Assembly (NCBI GenBank): GCA_022648325.1
Contig: JALCMG010000003.1
Span: 1-64,000 of the forward strand
Source: Olsenella sp.
GTDB taxonomy: Bacteria > Actinomycetota > Coriobacteriia > Coriobacteriales > Atopobiaceae
Reading direction: 5' to 3'
Length of the DNA stretch: 64,000 bases
Below are positions 18,326-59,571 of this stretch, in pieces. Position 1 is the stretch's first letter. Each line of letters begins with the position of its first letter. The notes beneath the pieces were generated by a model. That model searched no databases. It was given only the letters and a program-made list of their open reading frames with translations, and was not told where the DNA came from. A program made the position numbers and the translations under genes.

Positions 18326-20131
18326 TTACTCCCGCTTCCCCAGCGACTCGAGGCCGATGAGGGCCGCGCCGATGGCGCCGCAGAGCTGCGAGTCCTCGTG
18401 CGTGGCCACCGGAGCCTTGAGCACCTCGGAGAGCGCGCGCACGACGCCCTCGTTCTGGGCGACGCCGCCGGTCATGAGGTAGGGTGGCTCCGCGCCAACG
18501 CGGCTTGCGAGCGTGGCGGTCTTTCTCGCCACCGAGACGTCGAGCCCATGGATGACGTCGGGCGTGGGCGTGTTTGCGGCCACGAGCGAGACGACCTCGC
18601 TCTCGGCGAACACGGTGCACATGCTCGTGATGCGCACCTCGTGGCGCCACTCGAGCCCCCGGCGGCAGAACTCGTCGAGGTCCATCTCGAGCACGCGCGC
18701 CATGGCCTCCATGAAGCGGCCGGTACCTGCGGCGCACTTGTCGTTCATCACGAAGCCCGCCACGCTTCCGTTGGCGTTCAGGTGGATGACCTTGGAGTCC
18801 TGACCGCCGATGTCGATGACCGAGCGCGCGTCGGGGGCGAGGTAGTGGGCTCCGCGTGCGTGGCAGGTGATCTCGGTGACCGAGGAGTCCATCCCCTCGA
18901 TGTTGTCGCGGCCGTAGCCGGTCGAGACGCGCAGGGCCACGTCGCTTGGGGCGATTCCCGCCTGGGCGAGCGCCTCGTCCATCGCGCGTACGGCGGCGTC
19001 GGCGGCACGGGCGCCGGTGGGGACGATGGCCGTGGCCACAATCTGGCGATCGGCATCCATGATCACGACGTCGGTCGACGTGGAACCGGAGTCAACGCCC
19101 ATGACGTAGGTCGTTCCAGCTGGCGCGTCTGGTGCGGTAGCCGTAGTGCGCGTCGCCTCGTCCTGGTGCGCCGCCCCACCGCGTGCGCGTAGCGTCTCTC
19201 CAAACGCCTCGAGCCTCGTGCGCAGCTGACCCTCGCTCTGCGACGTGCCGTCCGTCTCGATTTTTACCATGGGGACCTCGTCCTTCTCAGCAAGTGCTCC
19301 GTATTCGAAGCCGTAGTAGTCGCAGAACTTCATGGTGTGGTAGACGATGCCCCTTTGCCCGCGTTCTCCCACAAGCTCGTCTCGCTCGGCGATGTCATCC
19401 ATGCGCATGCAGGGAATCTGGCCGAGAAGGGCTGGGGCGTACCAGTCGAGGAACGCGTCAAGGGGATCCTGTGCGGGCGTTGCGCCAGAGGTGCCTCCCT
19501 CGCAGCCCGCCTTGCATGCGGGGTCTGAGGACGCCCGCGCAAGCTGCGGTGGAGGAGAGACGCGAAGGCGCCTGCTCGTGCAGGTGGCATTCTCTACCGG
19601 CATGCCCACACCCCTCTCGACCTCCGCGACGAGAGAGGCCGAGGCGTGCGCGCCGAGGAGCGTCACGCGGTCGTCCGCGCGTCCGACACCCGTCCCGCAT
19701 GCGGCGCACGCGGCACCCACATCGAACTGCGCATCGGTATGCGCGGCGTAGGCATCCGCGAGCGCCCGCAGCCGGCGACGGAAGAGCGCGACCTCGGCCG
19801 GCCCACGCCGATGAGGCAGGTCGAGCAGGTACACAAAGTCCATGCAGCCGGATGCCTTGAGCACGTCGTAGACGCGGCGGACGACGTCACAGCAGGTCAC
19901 AAGCACCGCCTCGTGGACGTCGGACGCCATCATGCGCTCGATGAGGCCCTTGCCGTAGCCGCACAGGTTGGGGTGGGCCAGCGCATCGGCATACGCAAAG
20001 GAGGCGACGTCCGCCTCGGCGATGCGGGGCGTGGCACCAAAGCCCGCGAGGAGCTCTATGGGCGTGTATTTGCAGGCATAGAAGACTTCCCGACGTTCGC
20101 GCTGTTCAGATGGCATGGTTCCCATTCCCAA
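18326..20131 (-). CDS. Fused 2-hydroxyacyl-CoA dehydratase-like and BadF/BadG/HgdC activase protein
   Basis: The 601 residues contain two parts. Residues 1 to about 320 resemble an HgdB-type (YjiM-like) reductase or dehydratase component with conserved CKYTPIELLAGFG, HPNLCGYGKGLIE, TCCDVVRRVYD and LLDLPHRRG. Residues about 345-601 are an ASKHA-fold activator ATPase: GVDSGSTSTDVVIMD, SVIDIGGQDSKVIHL, DKCAAGTGRFMEAMA with the cluster cysteine, TSMCTVFAESEV with the second, and MTGGVAQNEGVV. Activators deliver low-potential electrons from a 4Fe-4S cluster using ATP. Fusion of activator and partner in one chain is unusual. It follows the HgdB gene by 49 bases. Confidence 0.85.
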   Translation of the reverse strand: MGMGTMPSEQRERREVFYACKYTPIELLAGFGATPRIAEADVASFAYADALAHPNLCGYGKGLIERMMASDVHEAVLVTCCDVVRRVYDVLKASGCMDFVYLLDLPHRRGPAEVALFRRRLRALADAYAAHTDAQFDVGAACAACGTGVGRADDRVTLLGAHASASLVAEVERGVGMPVENATCTSRRLRVSPPPQLARASSDPACKAGCEGGTSGATPAQDPLDAFLDWYAPALLGQIPCMRMDDIAERDELVGERGQRGIVYHTMKFCDYYGFEYGALAEKDEVPMVKIETDGTSQSEGQLRTRLEAFGETLRARGGAAHQDEATRTTATAPDAPAGTTYVMGVDSGSTSTDVVIMDADRQIVATAIVPTGARAADAAVRAMDEALAQAGIAPSDVALRVSTGYGRDNIEGMDSSVTEITCHARGAHYLAPDARSVIDIGGQDSKVIHLNANGSVAGFVMNDKCAAGTGRFMEAMARVLEMDLDEFCRRGLEWRHEVRITSMCTVFAESEVVSLVAANTPTPDVIHGLDVSVARKTATLASRVGAEPPYLMTGGVAQNEGVVRALSEVLKAPVATHEDSQLCGAIGAALIGLESLGKRE

Positions 20132-20180
20132 TACGTTTCCTGTTTACGAGGTGCGGTCCAGGCCGCAGCTGGCTTCCAGG

Positions 20181-21497
20181 CTACCTGCGTTTCTCGTCCT
20201 GCTTGCGCTTCTCGACCATCTCGAGGAAGGCCGAGAACCTCGTTGACATCTGGCCCTCCATGCAGTTGGCGCGGTCGCAGGCATCCCCGTCGAGCACCAG
20301 AACTGGCCAGCCCGCCCCCTCGAGCTGCCGGCGTACGAGCTGCGCGGCACCCGCAGTCTGCTTGCAGCCCCAGTGGCAGAAGAGCACCACGGCGTCTGCG
20401 TTGGTCTCGCGGGCGAGATGCTCGATGCAATCTGCCCGACGCGTAGCCGGCCCATTGAAGCAGCTGCGCACCAGCCGCTCCGCCATGAACTCGTAGGGGC
20501 TCGTCGCATCAAACCACGCATCGCCGACGGTGACGTGCTCGAACATCATGTCGGACGCCATGATCTGGGCAGTCTGGCTGGTGTTCACGAGCTCGCCCAG
20601 AGACTCCAGGAAGTATGGCGAGACATGCGCCCATACCAGGTTCACGCCCTCGTAGGGCGCGGCGGCGAGGAAGTCACGCCGCATCTCCTCCGCAAGTCTT
20701 TCGCACTCGGGGAGGCCGAGCGACAGGTGAAGGTCGAGCATCTCCATCATGTCGATGGTCATGGTGTTGGCGAGGTAGCGTCCGCGGCGCGTGGGGAGCG
20801 TTGCCGCAAGCGCGTTCATGGTGCGCTCGGAGCACGCGCAGGCCTCTCGCAGGCGCTCCTCGTCGAGCGTGTGCGAGAACGCCGCCTCGGCGACCCTGCC
20901 CATCTCTCGCAGCTCGTCGGCGACGTAGAGGACGGAGTCGCGCGAGACGTCATAGGGGACATCCACATAGACGTGGGGGATGTCCCAGTGGCGGGCCAGG
21001 GTCTTGAAGGTGAGGTTGTTGGCATCGCAGGCTACCGAGCAGCTTGCGAGCATGCGGGGCTTGCCCAGCACGCCCGAGGTTGCCATGCCCATGAGGATGC
21101 GGTGGTAGGAGCAATAGGTCTCGGGGATGCCCCGCCCCTCTGCCGCGGCGATGAAGCCTCCCTCTGCCTGCGCGCCGCTCGCGAAGGAGGCAACGGCCTC
21201 AGCCGTCACGGGACGCGCGCCCAGCGCGTGGAATATCTCGTTGGGAGTGAAGATGCTCGTGACCACGGCGTTGTCGAAGTCCGCGAGCGCCCCCACGACC
21301 GAATCCATGAACAGCTGGTAGCCGTGGTTGCCCGAGGGCAGGAGGTCGCCGTAGGGGGCAACGTGGACCTTTCCGCGCATGGCCTGGAAGCCCAGCATGA
21401 GCCAGTTGCGCACAAAGCCGGGGCGGGTCGAGAGGTTCTTCTCGGCCACGCCACCGTACCAGCCTATGAGGCGCTCGCCTGCGGACGCGCCGGCCAC
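20181..21497 (-). CDS. 2-hydroxyacyl-CoA dehydratase-family protein (HgdB/double-cubane-type candidate)
   Basis: The 438-residue protein of the HgdB/BcrC superfamily has the typical late motifs LFCHWGCKQT and DGDACDRANCMEGQMSTR, with a conserved mid-region CSYHRILMGMA and CSVACDANN. Such proteins bind 4Fe-4S or double-cubane clusters reduced by an HgdC-type ATPase, here encoded next in the operon. No acyl-CoA ligase, transferase or second dehydratase subunit lies nearby, so this may be an E. coli YjiM/double-cubane-type reductase rather than a fermentation enzyme. GTG at 21497 is preferred because gaggagg precedes it by seven bases; an ATG at 21527 is possible. It starts one base after the peptidase stop. 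Confidence 0.8.
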   Translation of the reverse strand: MAGASAGERLIGWYGGVAEKNLSTRPGFVRNWLMLGFQAMRGKVHVAPYGDLLPSGNHGYQLFMDSVVGALADFDNAVVTSIFTPNEIFHALGARPVTAEAVASFASGAQAEGGFIAAAEGRGIPETYCSYHRILMGMATSGVLGKPRMLASCSVACDANNLTFKTLARHWDIPHVYVDVPYDVSRDSVLYVADELREMGRVAEAAFSHTLDEERLREACACSERTMNALAATLPTRRGRYLANTMTIDMMEMLDLHLSLGLPECERLAEEMRRDFLAAAPYEGVNLVWAHVSPYFLESLGELVNTSQTAQIMASDMMFEHVTVGDAWFDATSPYEFMAERLVRSCFNGPATRRADCIEHLARETNADAVVLFCHWGCKQTAGAAQLVRRQLEGAGWPVLVLDGDACDRANCMEGQMSTRFSAFLEMVEKRKQDEKRR

Positions 21498-21498
21498 G

Positions 21499-24468
21499 CT
21501 ATGCCTCCTCGCTGCCGACGAGCTCATGCACGTCGAGGTCGAGTCCCGATGCCTCGATGGCCTCGCGGGGCCCAAAGACGCAAATGCCTGCGGGCGACGC
21601 GCTGGGCTCGAGCGACGGGGCGAGGGTGCGCACCTTCTCGGCGGTGGTGTCAAGCTCCTGCTGGCGGATGAGGTTTCTCCAGTTGGCCGGCCTGCCATTG
21701 AAGCGCTGCATGTCCTGCCTGCGGGCGAGCGTGCGGGGCTTCTCGGGCGCGTCCTGCGCGGCAACGGACGAGACGATGTAGCCGGAGAGCTCGTCGTCTG
21801 TGGGCGTCCAGTTGGCTAGCCACACGGCGGCGCCATCGTAGCGATCGAGGGTGTCTGCCACGTTGGGGTCGCGGAACGACCAGAACTGGCGGATCCCCTC
21901 GGTGGTGTGCTTGAAGCCCACGCCGTAGGCGCCTCCCTTCACGCGGACCTCGTTCCAGAGGTAGCCGAAGGAGAGGGCGCGGGTTGCAACCTGCCAGGTG
22001 CCAAGGGTTCCGTTGTCCGCAGGGGTTGGGGCGGCGCCACGGGCGACGAAGGAGACGTTGGAGGGGATCACGAAGCCCTCGCGCGCCGTCTTTGGTGCGG
22101 GAACCTGAAGCCTGTGCTCGCAGACGTTCTCGCCCTGCTCCTCGAGGCCAAGCGTGCCGCCAAGCTCCCAGAAGCGCTCGCGGTCCTCGGCGGGGCCGGT
22201 GAAGCTCGCCGTGACCTCGTCGGCGGTAAAGATGCGGTCGGCGAGGTTGGGGAGGATCTCCTGAAGTGCGGGGAGCCTGCGGTCCCAGTTGGCGAGCAGC
22301 TTCTTGAGGAAGAGGTAGTACTCGATGCCGCCCATCTGGCTCGAAGCAACAGCCGCGGACGAGAAGTAGCTCGACGTCCTGGCAGAGGAGGCCGCGTGGC
22401 CGGAGTTCACGAAGTACTGCTCCATGGCAATCTTGCGCTGCGTGAGGATGTCGCGCATGCGGCTGCCATCGAGGTAGAGGGTCTTGCCCCAGACCTCCTG
22501 CGGGACGCTCGCCAGGGCATCGACCTTCTCGGAGAGTGCGCTTGCGCTCACCACGAGCATGGGACGGGCGTACGAGAGGTCATCGTCGCGCCCGTAGGTC
22601 TCGTAGCCAAAGCCGAGGTTGCCGAGGTTGGCCTCGACCATCGTGTCGAGGTCGGAGGCCGTGTGGAGCTTGGTGTCGAGCTTGCCGAGGAGGTCTGTGA
22701 GCACGCCAACGTAAGGCAGCTCCGCAAAGCCAACGCGACGCAGGCCAAAGTAGTAGTAGACGTAGTCGATGCGGCGGGTGTCAAGCTCGTGCGCAATGCA
22801 GGGGAGCGGCGCCTCGACGTCCTTTGCCTCTGGCTCGGGGCGCGCGGGCTCGATGTCTGCCACGGTGAGCGTGGGCAGCGTTGCCAGTGCCTCCGGGGAG
22901 TCCGGTGCCTCCTGCTCGGCACGAAGCGCCTGAACCTCGTTGCGAACCGCCTCGACGTCCTCGTCGCTCATCTTTGAACGCAGCTGGGCAAGCTCCTCTG
23001 CCTCCTCGGCCGCATCTCCACTCTCGGTGGGAACGAGCTCGGCCACTGCGGAGTGGGGGTTCTCGCACACGATTTCTTCGAGGAGGCGCTCGAAGAGGTC
23101 GTTATCAAGGCCCCTCTTGAGGTCGGCAAGGGCGTCCTCGTACTGCAGATAGTCAAAGGGATGGCTGTCATCGTAGAGCCAGCTCGAGAGCGCCTGCATG
23201 GAGAGGGCCACGCCGTCGGTTGCCCAGGAGCCAAAGTCGCGCTCCCGCAGGTTGAACTCCGCCTGGGCGAGGGATGCCTCGAGCTTGTCGCGCGGGATGC
23301 CGCTCTCGGCGAACTCGCGGCAGGAGTCCTCGATGAGCTTGCGGAAACGTGCCGCAACGCCCTCGTGGGCGCCCTTGAGCTGGAAGACGATCTCGGGCTG
23401 GGCAACACCATCGATGAGCAGCGCCTGGAAGTCATCTGCGAGGCCTGCGTCGAGCACACGGCGCTTGAGAGGAGCCTCATTGGAGCCGCAGAGCGCGTCG
23501 AGAAGCACGTCAACGGCAAGCACGCGCTCGCGCTGGTTGGACGTGGCCACCACGTAGGCAAGGCCTACCGAGGCGTTGTCGGGCGTGGTTGCCATCTCGA
23601 CCTTCACGGGAGCGGCGGTGACTGCCGCTTGGAGTGGCAGGAGATTGGGCGCGCCGGCGTGTCGATCCTCGGCATTACGGAAGCGCTCGTCAATAAAGGC
23701 CAGCTCGCGGTCGATGTCCATGTCTCCGTAGAGGATGGTGTAGCTGTTGGGGAGCGCATAGTGGCGCGCGTGGGCATCGAGGAAGCCCTCGTAGGTGAGG
23801 GTGGGGATGGAGCGTGGTGCGCCGCCGGATTCAAAGCGGTAGGGACTCTCGGGGAAGAGCGCGCGAGAGAGGGCCAGGCTCAAAATCTCGTCCGGATTGG
23901 AGAGGGCGCCCTTCATCTCGTTGAAGACCACGCCGTTGTACGAGAGCGAGCCGTCGTCTGCCGCCTCGAGGTGCCAGCCCTCCTGCTCGAAGATGCGACG
24001 GCGGTAGTAGATCGCGGGATGGAGAACCGCGTCCAGGTAGACGCCCATGAGGTTCTCGAGGTCGGCGGTGTTGGTGGAGGCGACCGGGTACATGGTCTTG
24101 TCCGGGAAGGTGAGGGCGTTGAGGAAGGTCTGCATGGATGTCTTGAGCAGATTGACGAAGGGCTCCTTCACGGGATAGGCGTCCGAGCCGCAGAGCACGG
24201 AGTGCTCGATGATATGGAAAACTCCGGTGTCGTCTGCCGGAGGCGTCTTGAAGGCAATCGAGAAGGACTTGTTGGTGTCGGCGCACGCAATCCACATGGC
24301 GCGGGCGCCCGACGCCTGGTGGCGCATCACGTAGATGGTGCCGGAGACCTCCGGGACAGGCGTCGCGGAAACCACCTCGAAGCCGGCATGCACGCTGCCG
24401 GGGGCAAGTGACGGGTCGGGCGTGAGGAAGTCGCGCTCAGATGGTGCGATGGTGTCTTCAGATGCCAT
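21499..24468 (-). CDS. M16-family zinc metallopeptidase (presequence-protease-like, M16C)
   Basis: This large single-chain M16C peptidase (989 residues) has the inverted zinc motif HIIEH at residues 85-89 and the third zinc ligand region NEMKGALSN about 80 residues on. The family forms a clam shell of two halves and degrades short peptides to amino acids. ATG at 24468 was chosen because aaggaggaacc precedes it. It is the first gene of a minus-strand set with the HgdB-like and HgdC-fusion genes, whose starts are coupled or close; the functional link is unclear. It could supply amino acids for fermentation. Confidence 0.9.
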   Translation of the reverse strand: MASEDTIAPSERDFLTPDPSLAPGSVHAGFEVVSATPVPEVSGTIYVMRHQASGARAMWIACADTNKSFSIAFKTPPADDTGVFHIIEHSVLCGSDAYPVKEPFVNLLKTSMQTFLNALTFPDKTMYPVASTNTADLENLMGVYLDAVLHPAIYYRRRIFEQEGWHLEAADDGSLSYNGVVFNEMKGALSNPDEILSLALSRALFPESPYRFESGGAPRSIPTLTYEGFLDAHARHYALPNSYTILYGDMDIDRELAFIDERFRNAEDRHAGAPNLLPLQAAVTAAPVKVEMATTPDNASVGLAYVVATSNQRERVLAVDVLLDALCGSNEAPLKRRVLDAGLADDFQALLIDGVAQPEIVFQLKGAHEGVAARFRKLIEDSCREFAESGIPRDKLEASLAQAEFNLRERDFGSWATDGVALSMQALSSWLYDDSHPFDYLQYEDALADLKRGLDNDLFERLLEEIVCENPHSAVAELVPTESGDAAEEAEELAQLRSKMSDEDVEAVRNEVQALRAEQEAPDSPEALATLPTLTVADIEPARPEPEAKDVEAPLPCIAHELDTRRIDYVYYYFGLRRVGFAELPYVGVLTDLLGKLDTKLHTASDLDTMVEANLGNLGFGYETYGRDDDLSYARPMLVVSASALSEKVDALASVPQEVWGKTLYLDGSRMRDILTQRKIAMEQYFVNSGHAASSARTSSYFSSAAVASSQMGGIEYYLFLKKLLANWDRRLPALQEILPNLADRIFTADEVTASFTGPAEDRERFWELGGTLGLEEQGENVCEHRLQVPAPKTAREGFVIPSNVSFVARGAAPTPADNGTLGTWQVATRALSFGYLWNEVRVKGGAYGVGFKHTTEGIRQFWSFRDPNVADTLDRYDGAAVWLANWTPTDDELSGYIVSSVAAQDAPEKPRTLARRQDMQRFNGRPANWRNLIRQQELDTTAEKVRTLAPSLEPSASPAGICVFGPREAIEASGLDLDVHELVGSEEA

Positions 24469-24655
24469 GGTTCCTCCTTGTGGCGCAGGGGTGGTAGGGG
24501 CTGTAGACAACCCTGTGGCCAATGCGGTCTGGGCCGCTTACCGTTTTCCGAGAAGAAGCTTAGCACGCAAGGTATGGTGCCCGTTTTCTCGTGCATGCAG
24601 ACTGGCGCGCCGACGCGGCAGCGTTCCGCTGTAGAATCACATGTCGCTGCGAACA

Positions 24656-57054: not shown

Positions 57055-59571
57055 ATGAGCGCCCAAAGTCTCGCACAGGGAGATTCGCGCTGGCCAAAGG
57101 ACCGCCTTGTTCCCCGCTCGCGTCACGTGCGCGACGAGCACCTCGCGGCCGTGCTGCGTGGCGAGGAGTTCCTGCTCTTTGACGGTGCCATGGGCACGCA
57201 GCTCCAGGCGCGCGGCCTTGCCGCGGGTGAGTTGCCAGAGCTTCTCTGCCTCACCAACCCTACCGAGATTCGCGAGGTGCATGCCGCCTATGTTGCCGCC
57301 GGTGCCGAGGTCGTGACCACCAATACCTTTGGCGCAAACTCCGCCAAGCTGGGTGGGACAGCGAGCGTCGACGAGGTCTTCTCGGCTGCTGTCTCGTGCG
57401 CGCGTGAATCCGGTGCTCGCTATGTGGCGGCAGACCTTGGCCCCACAGGGCAGCTCCTCGAGCCCATGGGACCCCTGCCCTTTGATGACGCATACGACCT
57501 CTTTGCCGAGCAGGTTAGGGCGGCAGATGAAGCAGGCGCGGACCTCTTCGTAATCGAGACGATGGCCGACCTCGCTGAGGCCAAGGCCGCCCTTCTCGCC
57601 GTGCGCGAGAACTCGGACCTTCCCGCGTTTGTGACCATGACCTTTGGGGAGGATGGGCGCACCTTCTTGGGAACCACGCCGGAGGCAGCGGCCGTCACGC
57701 TTTACTCCCTGGGGGCAGACGCTGTGGGCATCAACTGCGGGCTTGGCCCCGCCGCGGTGGCGCCTCTGGTTGAGCGGATGCTACCGTGGGCGTCCTGCCC
57801 CGTTATGGCGCAGGCCAATGCCGGGTTGCCGCACGTCGTTGATGGCGTGACCACCTACGACGTGGGTCCCGAGGAGTACGCTGCGGCAGTCGAGCGCATG
57901 CTGGACGCGGGCGTCACCGTGATCGGTGGCTGCTGTGGGACTACACCCGCACACATTGCCCGCGAGCGCGAGCTTCTCTCCGGCCGCATCCCTGCTGAGC
58001 ATAGCGTGCATGATAGCTTTGCCGTGTCGAGCGCCCAGGAGATCTGCTCGCTTGACTACGGGCAGGTGGGCGTCATTGGCGAGCGCATCAACCCTACGGG
58101 CAAGCGCCTGATGAAGGAGGCTCTGCGCACGGGCGATTACGACTACGTGATGAACATGGCCATAGAGCAGGGTCGCGCAGGAGCGCAGATCCTCGACGTG
58201 AACGCAGGCCTGCCCGAGATAGACGAGCGCGCCGTGATGTGCCAGCTCGTCTCGGAGCTCCAGGGCGTGAGCACGCTTCCCCTGCAGATCGACGCTGCCG
58301 ACCCGGCTGTGATTGAGGCGGCAGTGCGCAGCTACCCCGGCAAGGCGCTCATCAACTCCACCAACGGCAAGGCGCAGACCATGGCTGAGGTGCTTCCCAT
58401 CGTGAAGCACTATGGCTGCGCGGTGGTTGGCCTTACCCTCGACGAGGACGGCATTCCTGCAACGGCAGAGGGTCGTCTCGACATCGCAAAGAAGATCGTG
58501 CGCGAATGCGAGCGGCTCGGCATCCCGCGCCACGACGTGGTCATCGACTGCCTTACCATGGCGGCCTCGACCGACCAGACCCAGCCCAGGGCGATTCTCG
58601 ATGCAATACGCCTGGTCAAGCAGGAGCTGCCTGGCGTGCGTACCGTGCTGGGCGTGAGCAACATAAGCTTTGGGCTGCCCTTCAGGCCGCTCGTGAACGG
58701 CACCTTCCTGGCGGCCGCCTTCTCTGCCGGCCTTGACCTAGCCATCATCAATCCCTGCCTCACCCGGATGATGGACGTGGTCGACTCCTGGCGCGTGCTC
58801 TCGGGCGAGGACGAAAGCGCCCAGTACTTTGTAGCCAACTATGCCGGGAGGAGCGACCGCACCCCTGCGCCGGCGACCCCTGCCGAGAAGACCGTAGCGC
58901 CCTCTTCCGGTGTCCCGGCGGAGCCCACCGAGCCTGCAGATCCCGCTGCCCGCGCCCGCGAGCTTGTGCTTGCTGGCCGCAAGGGCCCCATGCCCGAGGT
59001 GGTGGCCCAGGTCATCGAAGAGCACGGCCTCATGTTCGCCATCAACGAGGTCCTCATCCCCGCGCTCGACGTGGTGGGGGAGCGCTTCGAGAAGGGGGTA
59101 TTCTTCCTTCCTCAGCTCATGGCATCTGCTGAGGCCGCCAAGGCAGGATTTGAGACCATCAAGAAGGCTGTGGATGCCAGCGGGCAGGACACAGACGTTC
59201 CCAAGAAGGGCTCCATCGTGGTGTGCACCGTCTATGGTGACATCCATGACATTGGCAAGAACATTGTGCGCATGCTGCTCGAGAACTACGGCTACAACGT
59301 GATTGACCTCGGTCGAGACGTGCCGCCCCAGGTGGTCGCCGACGCCGTGGTCAAAGACCACGTTCTGCTCTGCGGGCTCTCCGCCCTCATGACCGCAACG
59401 GTGCCTGCCATGGCCGAGACCATCGAACTTCTCCGCAAAGAAGCCCCCTGGTGCAAGGTCGTGGTGGGTGGCGCCGTACTCAATCCCGAGTACGCGAAGA
59501 TGGTAGGGGCCGACTACTACGCGAAGGACGCCACCGAGACCGCTCGCATTGCGGCGGCGGTGCTGGGATAG
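57055..59571 (+). CDS. metH: Cobalamin-dependent methionine synthase lacking the activation domain
   Basis: The 838 residues hold the homocysteine domain (about 30-315; zinc cysteines in GINCGLGP and GGCCGTTP), the pterin domain (about 335-600; VIGERINPTGKRLMKEAL), a Pro/Ala-rich linker (about 603-640), and the cobalamin cap and Rossmann domains (about 640-838) with the cobalt-ligand motif GDIHDIGKNIV. The fourth, SAM-binding reactivation domain is absent and is encoded separately upstream. It transfers methyl from methyl-THF to homocysteine. Such split MetH is known in anaerobes. The ribosome site is gagaggagctgctc. Confidence 0.95.
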   Translation: MSAQSLAQGDSRWPKDRLVPRSRHVRDEHLAAVLRGEEFLLFDGAMGTQLQARGLAAGELPELLCLTNPTEIREVHAAYVAAGAEVVTTNTFGANSAKLGGTASVDEVFSAAVSCARESGARYVAADLGPTGQLLEPMGPLPFDDAYDLFAEQVRAADEAGADLFVIETMADLAEAKAALLAVRENSDLPAFVTMTFGEDGRTFLGTTPEAAAVTLYSLGADAVGINCGLGPAAVAPLVERMLPWASCPVMAQANAGLPHVVDGVTTYDVGPEEYAAAVERMLDAGVTVIGGCCGTTPAHIARERELLSGRIPAEHSVHDSFAVSSAQEICSLDYGQVGVIGERINPTGKRLMKEALRTGDYDYVMNMAIEQGRAGAQILDVNAGLPEIDERAVMCQLVSELQGVSTLPLQIDAADPAVIEAAVRSYPGKALINSTNGKAQTMAEVLPIVKHYGCAVVGLTLDEDGIPATAEGRLDIAKKIVRECERLGIPRHDVVIDCLTMAASTDQTQPRAILDAIRLVKQELPGVRTVLGVSNISFGLPFRPLVNGTFLAAAFSAGLDLAIINPCLTRMMDVVDSWRVLSGEDESAQYFVANYAGRSDRTPAPATPAEKTVAPSSGVPAEPTEPADPAARARELVLAGRKGPMPEVVAQVIEEHGLMFAINEVLIPALDVVGERFEKGVFFLPQLMASAEAAKAGFETIKKAVDASGQDTDVPKKGSIVVCTVYGDIHDIGKNIVRMLLENYGYNVIDLGRDVPPQVVADAVVKDHVLLCGLSALMTATVPAMAETIELLRKEAPWCKVVVGGAVLNPEYAKMVGADYYAKDATETARIAAAVLG

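Follow-up and report, generated by a model that had tools for sequence, protein, structure and literature searches.

A conserved two-gene cassette of Olsenella sp. predicted to encode an ATP-dependent, low-potential iron-sulfur reductase with a fused activator

What kind of enzyme is encoded where a protein of the HGD-D family adjoins a second chain in which another HGD-D domain is joined to an activator ATPase? This question is raised by a gene pair at positions 18326-21497 of a 64,000-nucleotide stretch of Olsenella sp. DNA (contig JALCMG010000003.1), which is referred to here as the window. A sequence-only reading of the pair had favored an ATP-driven low-potential reductase of the double-cubane or YjiM/YjiL type over an enzyme of 2-hydroxyacyl-coenzyme A (CoA) fermentation. 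Based on comparisons with characterized relatives, we suggest that the pair encodes a heteromeric, stoichiometric, ATP-dependent low-potential iron-sulfur reductase composed of an alpha subunit and a beta-gamma fusion, a reading to which we assign a probability of about 0.62. The pair is best read as a variant new to the BCR-I/HAD superfamily, with active-site motifs of its own (CSYH, CDxN and HWGC).

The open reading frame (ORF) at 18326-20131 contains both an HGD-D (E 7.5e-30) and a BcrAD_BadFG (E 1.2e-62) Pfam domain in a single chain, and the adjoining ORF at 20181-21497 matched HGD-D (E 9.1e-60), all of them well beyond what chance would give. These results confirmed two statements of the sequence-only reading, i.e., that an activator ATPase and a dehydratase-like domain share one chain, for which its coordinates were right, and that a separate HgdB-type protein lies beside it. 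The fusion also scored 258.6 bits with the CoA_E_activ model (TIGR00241; curated cut-off, 125.4 bits), and a flexible linker joins its beta HGD-D domain to gamma. The parts of the pair are as follows.

20181-21497, minus strand: alpha subunit, a standalone HGD-D protein of 438 residues with a GTG start (Pfam)
18326-20131, minus strand: beta-gamma fusion, HGD-D plus activator ATPase, up to 601 residues (Pfam; AlphaFold2 predicted local distance difference test, pLDDT, 87.4)
19184-20116, minus strand: beta domain, reduced and BzdN/DCCP-like, without the middle helical domain (fold comparison and alignment)
18329-19111, minus strand: gamma domain, activator ATPase or "archerase" (TIGR00241; fold comparison)

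The gene order is alpha and then the fusion, with a gap of ~50-65 nucleotides in the window. The fusion starts with TTG at 20131, with in-frame ATG codons at 20125 and 20116, and the ribosome-binding box of alpha (GAGGAGG) lies inside the 3' end of an upstream M16 peptidase gene. Residues of alpha are numbered from its GTG start, and those of the fusion from window position 20083 (the F of FYACKY).

AlphaFold2 models were obtained for both proteins (pLDDT 93.4 for alpha). The alpha model matched HadB (Z 36.3), BzdO (34.1), MbdO (31.4), HadC (30.7) and DCCP (28), and a profile search likewise gave BzdO and HadB as the best matches. The beta domain matched BzdN (Z 22.1), DCCP (21.5 and 21.1) and HadC (20.2). 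Because these fold matches make the fused HGD-D domain beta-type and the standalone protein alpha-type, the sequences and models indicate that the pair encodes the alpha and beta subunits of one heterodimer. The earlier statement that no second dehydratase subunit is present was thus overturned: the structure prediction of both proteins that had been proposed as a check assigned the alpha and beta folds, and the supposedly missing subunit was found within the fusion. The Z scores of BzdN, DCCP and HadC differ little, and the subtype of beta therefore cannot be read from its fold alone.

The [8Fe-9S] cluster of BzdN is bound by Cys36, Cys73, Cys100, Cys263, Cys293 and Cys327 (PMC11971306). Under three MAFFT modes, these six ligands aligned with Cys4, Cys41, Cys65, Cys168, Cys225 and Cys254 of beta, each of which was invariant in the 48 diverse sequences over which residue conservation was counted (48/48). 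At these positions HadC lacks two of the cysteines, having Pro and Ala there, and MbdN lacks three. The predicted ligands, assigned by alignment, are:

20072-20074, minus strand: Cys4, predicted [8Fe-9S] ligand 1 (BzdN Cys36)
19961-19963, minus strand: Cys41, predicted ligand 2 (BzdN Cys73)
19889-19891, minus strand: Cys65, predicted ligand 3 (BzdN Cys100)
19580-19582, minus strand: Cys168, predicted ligand 4 (BzdN Cys263)
19409-19411, minus strand: Cys225, predicted ligand 5 (BzdN Cys293)
19322-19324, minus strand: Cys254, predicted ligand 6 (BzdN Cys327)

The alignment also showed a gap of ~60-70 residues in beta where the middle helical domain would be. In BzdO this domain helps to form the CoA channel (PMC11971306), and we infer that beta serves only to store and transfer electrons. 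A stretch of beta containing Cys190 and Cys193 (window ~19503-19516) is an insert found only in Atopobiaceae and modeled with low confidence; within this family Cys190 is invariant, and a second cysteine 3-4 residues on is mostly conserved. These two residues, hinted at by hhalign, were ruled out as cluster ligands on the grounds of the absence of the stretch outside Atopobiaceae and the low model confidence.

In BzdO, a [4Fe-4S] cluster is bound by Cys95, Cys128 and Cys380, with Glu65 and His131 nearby (PMC11971306). Alignment of alpha with BzdO and HadB identified the following residues, all conserved in 48/48 sequences.

21198-21200, minus strand: Glu100, counterpart of HadB Glu55 and probably of BzdO Glu65, the latter match resting on spacing only
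21111-21113, minus strand: Cys129 (CSYH motif), counterpart of BzdO Cys95 and HadB Cys84
21027-21029, minus strand: Cys157 (CDxN motif), counterpart of BzdO Cys128 and HadB Cys117
20364-20366, minus strand: Cys378 (HWGC motif), counterpart of BzdO Cys380

For Cys157 the match to HadB was direct; the BzdO alignment was off by one, with a gap just after it, and the gapless placement of the helix was chosen. Under this placement, the invariant Asn160 of alpha occupies the position of BzdO His131. The motifs C-S-[YF]-H, C-D-x-N and H-W-G-C are invariant and specific to alpha. The residue two positions past the first cysteine is Tyr in 43/48 sequences and otherwise Phe, and resembles Tyr97 of BzdO, the residue in contact with the CoA thioester (PMC11971306). 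From its sequence and model, alpha is predicted to be the catalytic subunit, with a site-differentiated [4Fe-4S] cluster.

The fold of gamma matched the activators MbdQ (Z 36.6), HgdC (35.8), HadI (34.0) and DCCP-R (28.1). Two of its cysteines, both invariant (48/48), aligned with those of HgdC and HadI:

18734-18736, minus strand: Cys450 (NDKCAAGTG), predicted ligand of a dimer-bridging [4Fe-4S] cluster
18617-18619, minus strand: Cys489 (CTVFAESEV), predicted second ligand of this cluster

In a tree of 57 activators, in which the reference branches are long, the 48 fused activators formed one group (support 95/90) apart from HgdC/HadI, MbdQ and DCCP-R/YjiL, so that the phylogeny called for by the sequence-only reading gave them a clade of their own. 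One tblastn match spans yjiM into yjiL in E. coli-type plasmid records, which makes it plausible that the fusion originated when a DCCP-like gene merged with the activator gene downstream of it.

Relatives were found by scanning genome contigs with patterns from the beta domain alone; 80 of 140 were kept, from Atopobiaceae, Clostridia (Flavonifractor, Intestinimonas, Evtepia, Lachnospiraceae and others) and Spirochaetaceae. Alpha and beta passed a strict motif test in 78/81 loci and paired up by clustering in the other three. Gamma was in frame with beta in 77 of those 78 loci, the exception (L063) being a contig end, and a 4-nucleotide overlap of alpha with the fusion was present in 40/47 loci from outside Atopobiaceae. 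Since the query was beta only, the adjacency of alpha and the fusion of gamma are independent observations, and their recurrence argues that the two-gene arrangement is neither chance nor a frameshift artefact. No description of an HGD-D/activator fusion was found in the literature searched, which did not include key DCCP papers, so an earlier mention is possible.

The predicted cofactor pair matches that of Bzd-type benzoyl-CoA reductase, and neither that of 2-hydroxyacyl-CoA dehydratases nor that of the homodimeric DCCP/YjiM. The domains, the alpha and beta identities, the six- and three-cysteine sets, the fusion and its conservation were seen directly in the sequences and models, and the clusters, electron path, ATP coupling and reductase chemistry proposed here are taken from characterized relatives. 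A ferredoxin or flavodoxin would reduce a [4Fe-4S] cluster bridging two gamma domains, and ATP hydrolysis in gamma would push the electron onto the [8Fe-9S] double-cubane store in the fused beta. Electrons would then move to the three-cysteine [4Fe-4S] cluster of alpha, with its open site, and the substrate would be reduced there at very low potential, with Glu100 as the likely proton relay. In dehydratases, one activation serves thousands of turnovers (PMC11574389), whereas class I benzoyl-CoA reductases (BCR) couple ATP hydrolysis to each electron (PMC11971306). Because beta has the reductase-type six-cysteine set and its activator is attached one-to-one, which favors a reductase since a dehydratase needs only a single activation per thousands of turnovers, a continuously ATP-fed reductase appears more likely than a dehydratase.

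We weighed three other explanations against this one. The pair shares with BzdNOPQ a predicted six-cysteine double-cubane subunit, a three-cysteine [4Fe-4S] subunit (the combination being seen at the sequence level only), a conserved Glu and an ATP-driven activator. In a narrower form of the reductase reading, the substrate is named as an aromatic or unsaturated CoA thioester and the enzyme would resemble benzoyl-CoA reductase. This would account for the cofactor pair and for the Glu and Tyr positions that match BzdO (PMC11971306), but we consider it unlikely. Scores with the bzdN/O equivalogs were below their cut-offs (36.3 vs 448.6 and 11.7 vs 453.8 bits), as was that with bzdQ (173.9 vs 380.2 bits), and an invariant Asn160 replaces BzdO His131 in the gapless placement. 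The window genome lacks the enoyl-CoA hydratase expected for a downstream CoA pathway, and no such pathway was found there; moreover, the organisms with the cassette are gut fermenters, whereas descriptions of class I BCR come from facultative anaerobes (PMC11971306). In contrast to BzdNOPQ, the window beta has no middle helical domain and shares a chain with the activator, and the cassette has one activator domain rather than two different subunits (P and Q), with no other activator conserved beside it among the loci compared. The pair could also be a small-molecule reductase of the DCCP/YjiM type, or a protein of sulfur or redox housekeeping that has no organic substrate of its own, but this appears very improbable. 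Beta does have the six-cysteine double-cubane set of DCCP, an ATPase partner is common to both, and the E. coli-type yjiM-yjiL order, over which the single tblastn match extends, is the order of the fused domains. However, each subunit of the DCCP homodimer carries a double cubane and six cluster cysteines, and its activator is a separate protein, whereas the window subunits differ, alpha having only three of the six, and the activator is fused. The window proteins scored 52.3 and 54.4 bits with the double_cubane equivalog NF040772 (cut-off, 350 bits), and the genome already encodes a true DCCP with its own activator, so the YjiM/YjiL label of the sequence-only reading was not upheld. This DCCP lies on contig C14:25181-26221 of the host genome (G000; L001) and scored 476.7 bits with NF040772; its activator gene is divergently oriented (L006).

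The remaining alternative, a 2-hydroxyacyl-CoA dehydratase of the Hgd/Had/Fld type with a fused activator, used in fermentation with CoA activation by another enzyme, also seems doubtful. In its favor, the alpha fold is as near to HadB as to BzdO and keeps the three cysteines and catalytic Glu of HadB (Cys129/157/378 and Glu100), and gamma has the fold of HadI/HgdC (~40-43% identity). Among 61 Atopobiaceae genomes (G000-G060), type III CoA-transferases were also commoner in those bearing the cassette (11/32 vs 1/29; Fisher p 0.003, uncorrected for kinship). Yet beta, rather than having the reduced cysteine set of a [4Fe-5S]-type subunit, retains Cys in 48/48 sequences at the two positions of HadC Pro and Ala, and the HadB and HadC equivalog cut-offs were far from reached (47.6 vs 750 and 29.6 vs 700 bits). 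The activator of Had/Hgd systems is a separate protein, and known members work with CoA-transferases, whereas neither type III nor type I CoA-transferases (PF02515, PF01144) nor electron-transferring flavoprotein (ETF) or enoyl-CoA hydratase were found in the window genome (2.45 Mb, 99.4% complete; nearest records Tractidigestivibacter/Olsenella, ~90% identity). The sequence-only reading had remarked on the lack of a CoA-transferase beside the pair, and this extends to types I and III throughout the genome. Neither transferase type was present in 18/32 cassette-bearing Atopobiaceae, and no substrate-pathway genes recurred beside the pair among the 81 loci. In one genome (G026), a type III CoA-transferase lies ~10 kb from the cassette. 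The invariant six-cysteine set, the attached activator and the absence of these CoA-transferases, ETF and enoyl-CoA hydratase thus bear out the earlier preference for an ATP-driven low-potential reductase over 2-hydroxyacyl-CoA fermentation.

Several points nevertheless weigh against the heteromeric reductase that we prefer. The beta Z scores of BzdN, DCCP and HadC are all within ~2 of one another, and in one comparison by single-template hhalign the fourth ligand fell near Cys190 rather than on Cys168. AlphaFold models hold no metals, and the clusters, activity and substrate are features that we infer by analogy. AMP-binding ligases are present in the window genome, so CoA activation would be possible, and a CoA substrate is still conceivable because alpha keeps a Tyr/Phe like the thioester-contacting Tyr97 of BzdO.

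According to PMC11971306, the Bzd-type benzoyl-CoA reductase was the first double-cubane enzyme for which a catabolic role was defined, and Birch-type reductions by enzymes are confined to CoA esters. The cassette described here, which occurs in bacteria of the gut and rumen, packs the same predicted cofactors into two genes, and in at least one of its hosts no pathway for CoA esters is evident. We tentatively raise the possibility, though we would not bet on it, of a compact, self-activating double-cubane reductase, with one ATPase fused to the electron store, that acts in gut anaerobes at very low potential and independently of CoA on a substrate that is free rather than a thioester, such as an unsaturated or aromatic compound from the diet or the host. 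If the prediction of the cofactor pair holds, double-cubane chemistry could be studied in a small and tractable system, and the cassette would be a candidate for gut reductions that have yet to be assigned.

The gene nearest to alpha in the window is the following.

21499-24522, minus strand: M16C peptidase gene, ending 1 nucleotide before the alpha start

This neighbor was common to the Atopobiaceae loci only and is probably not a functional part of the enzyme. No third gene beside the pair was conserved from one order to another among the 81 loci; flanks varied by order (pectin acetylesterase-like, nuclease, DUF6320, Mbeg1-like and others), and neighbors were therefore ruled out as a clue to the substrate. 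A nitroreductase and an aminotransferase at 16.4-18.3 kb were rejected as operon members on account of their convergent orientation; the nitroreductase family occurred near the pair in 10/81 loci. In three Olsenella-type loci (L049, 5101-7951; L053, 5301-7933; L054, 859-3490), tandem alpha genes precede a single beta-gamma fusion. The copies are ~52% identical and both contain the three ligand cysteines, and they may represent two catalytic subunits on one electron module.

Elsewhere in the window, 57055-59571 (plus strand) encodes a MetH-like methionine synthase of 838 residues with S-methyl_trans, Pterin_bind and B12-binding domains. No reactivation domain was listed for it in Pfam at E 1e-5, which raises the question of how the enzyme restores reduced cobalamin. 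Weak metallo-beta-lactamase matches (E 0.02-0.08) were treated as chance. Finally, at contig C1:29060-30769 of the host genome (G000; L007, L009) there is a 1568-residue open frame for a giant activator-like protein with two activator domains, counterparts of which were found in most of the relatives searched.

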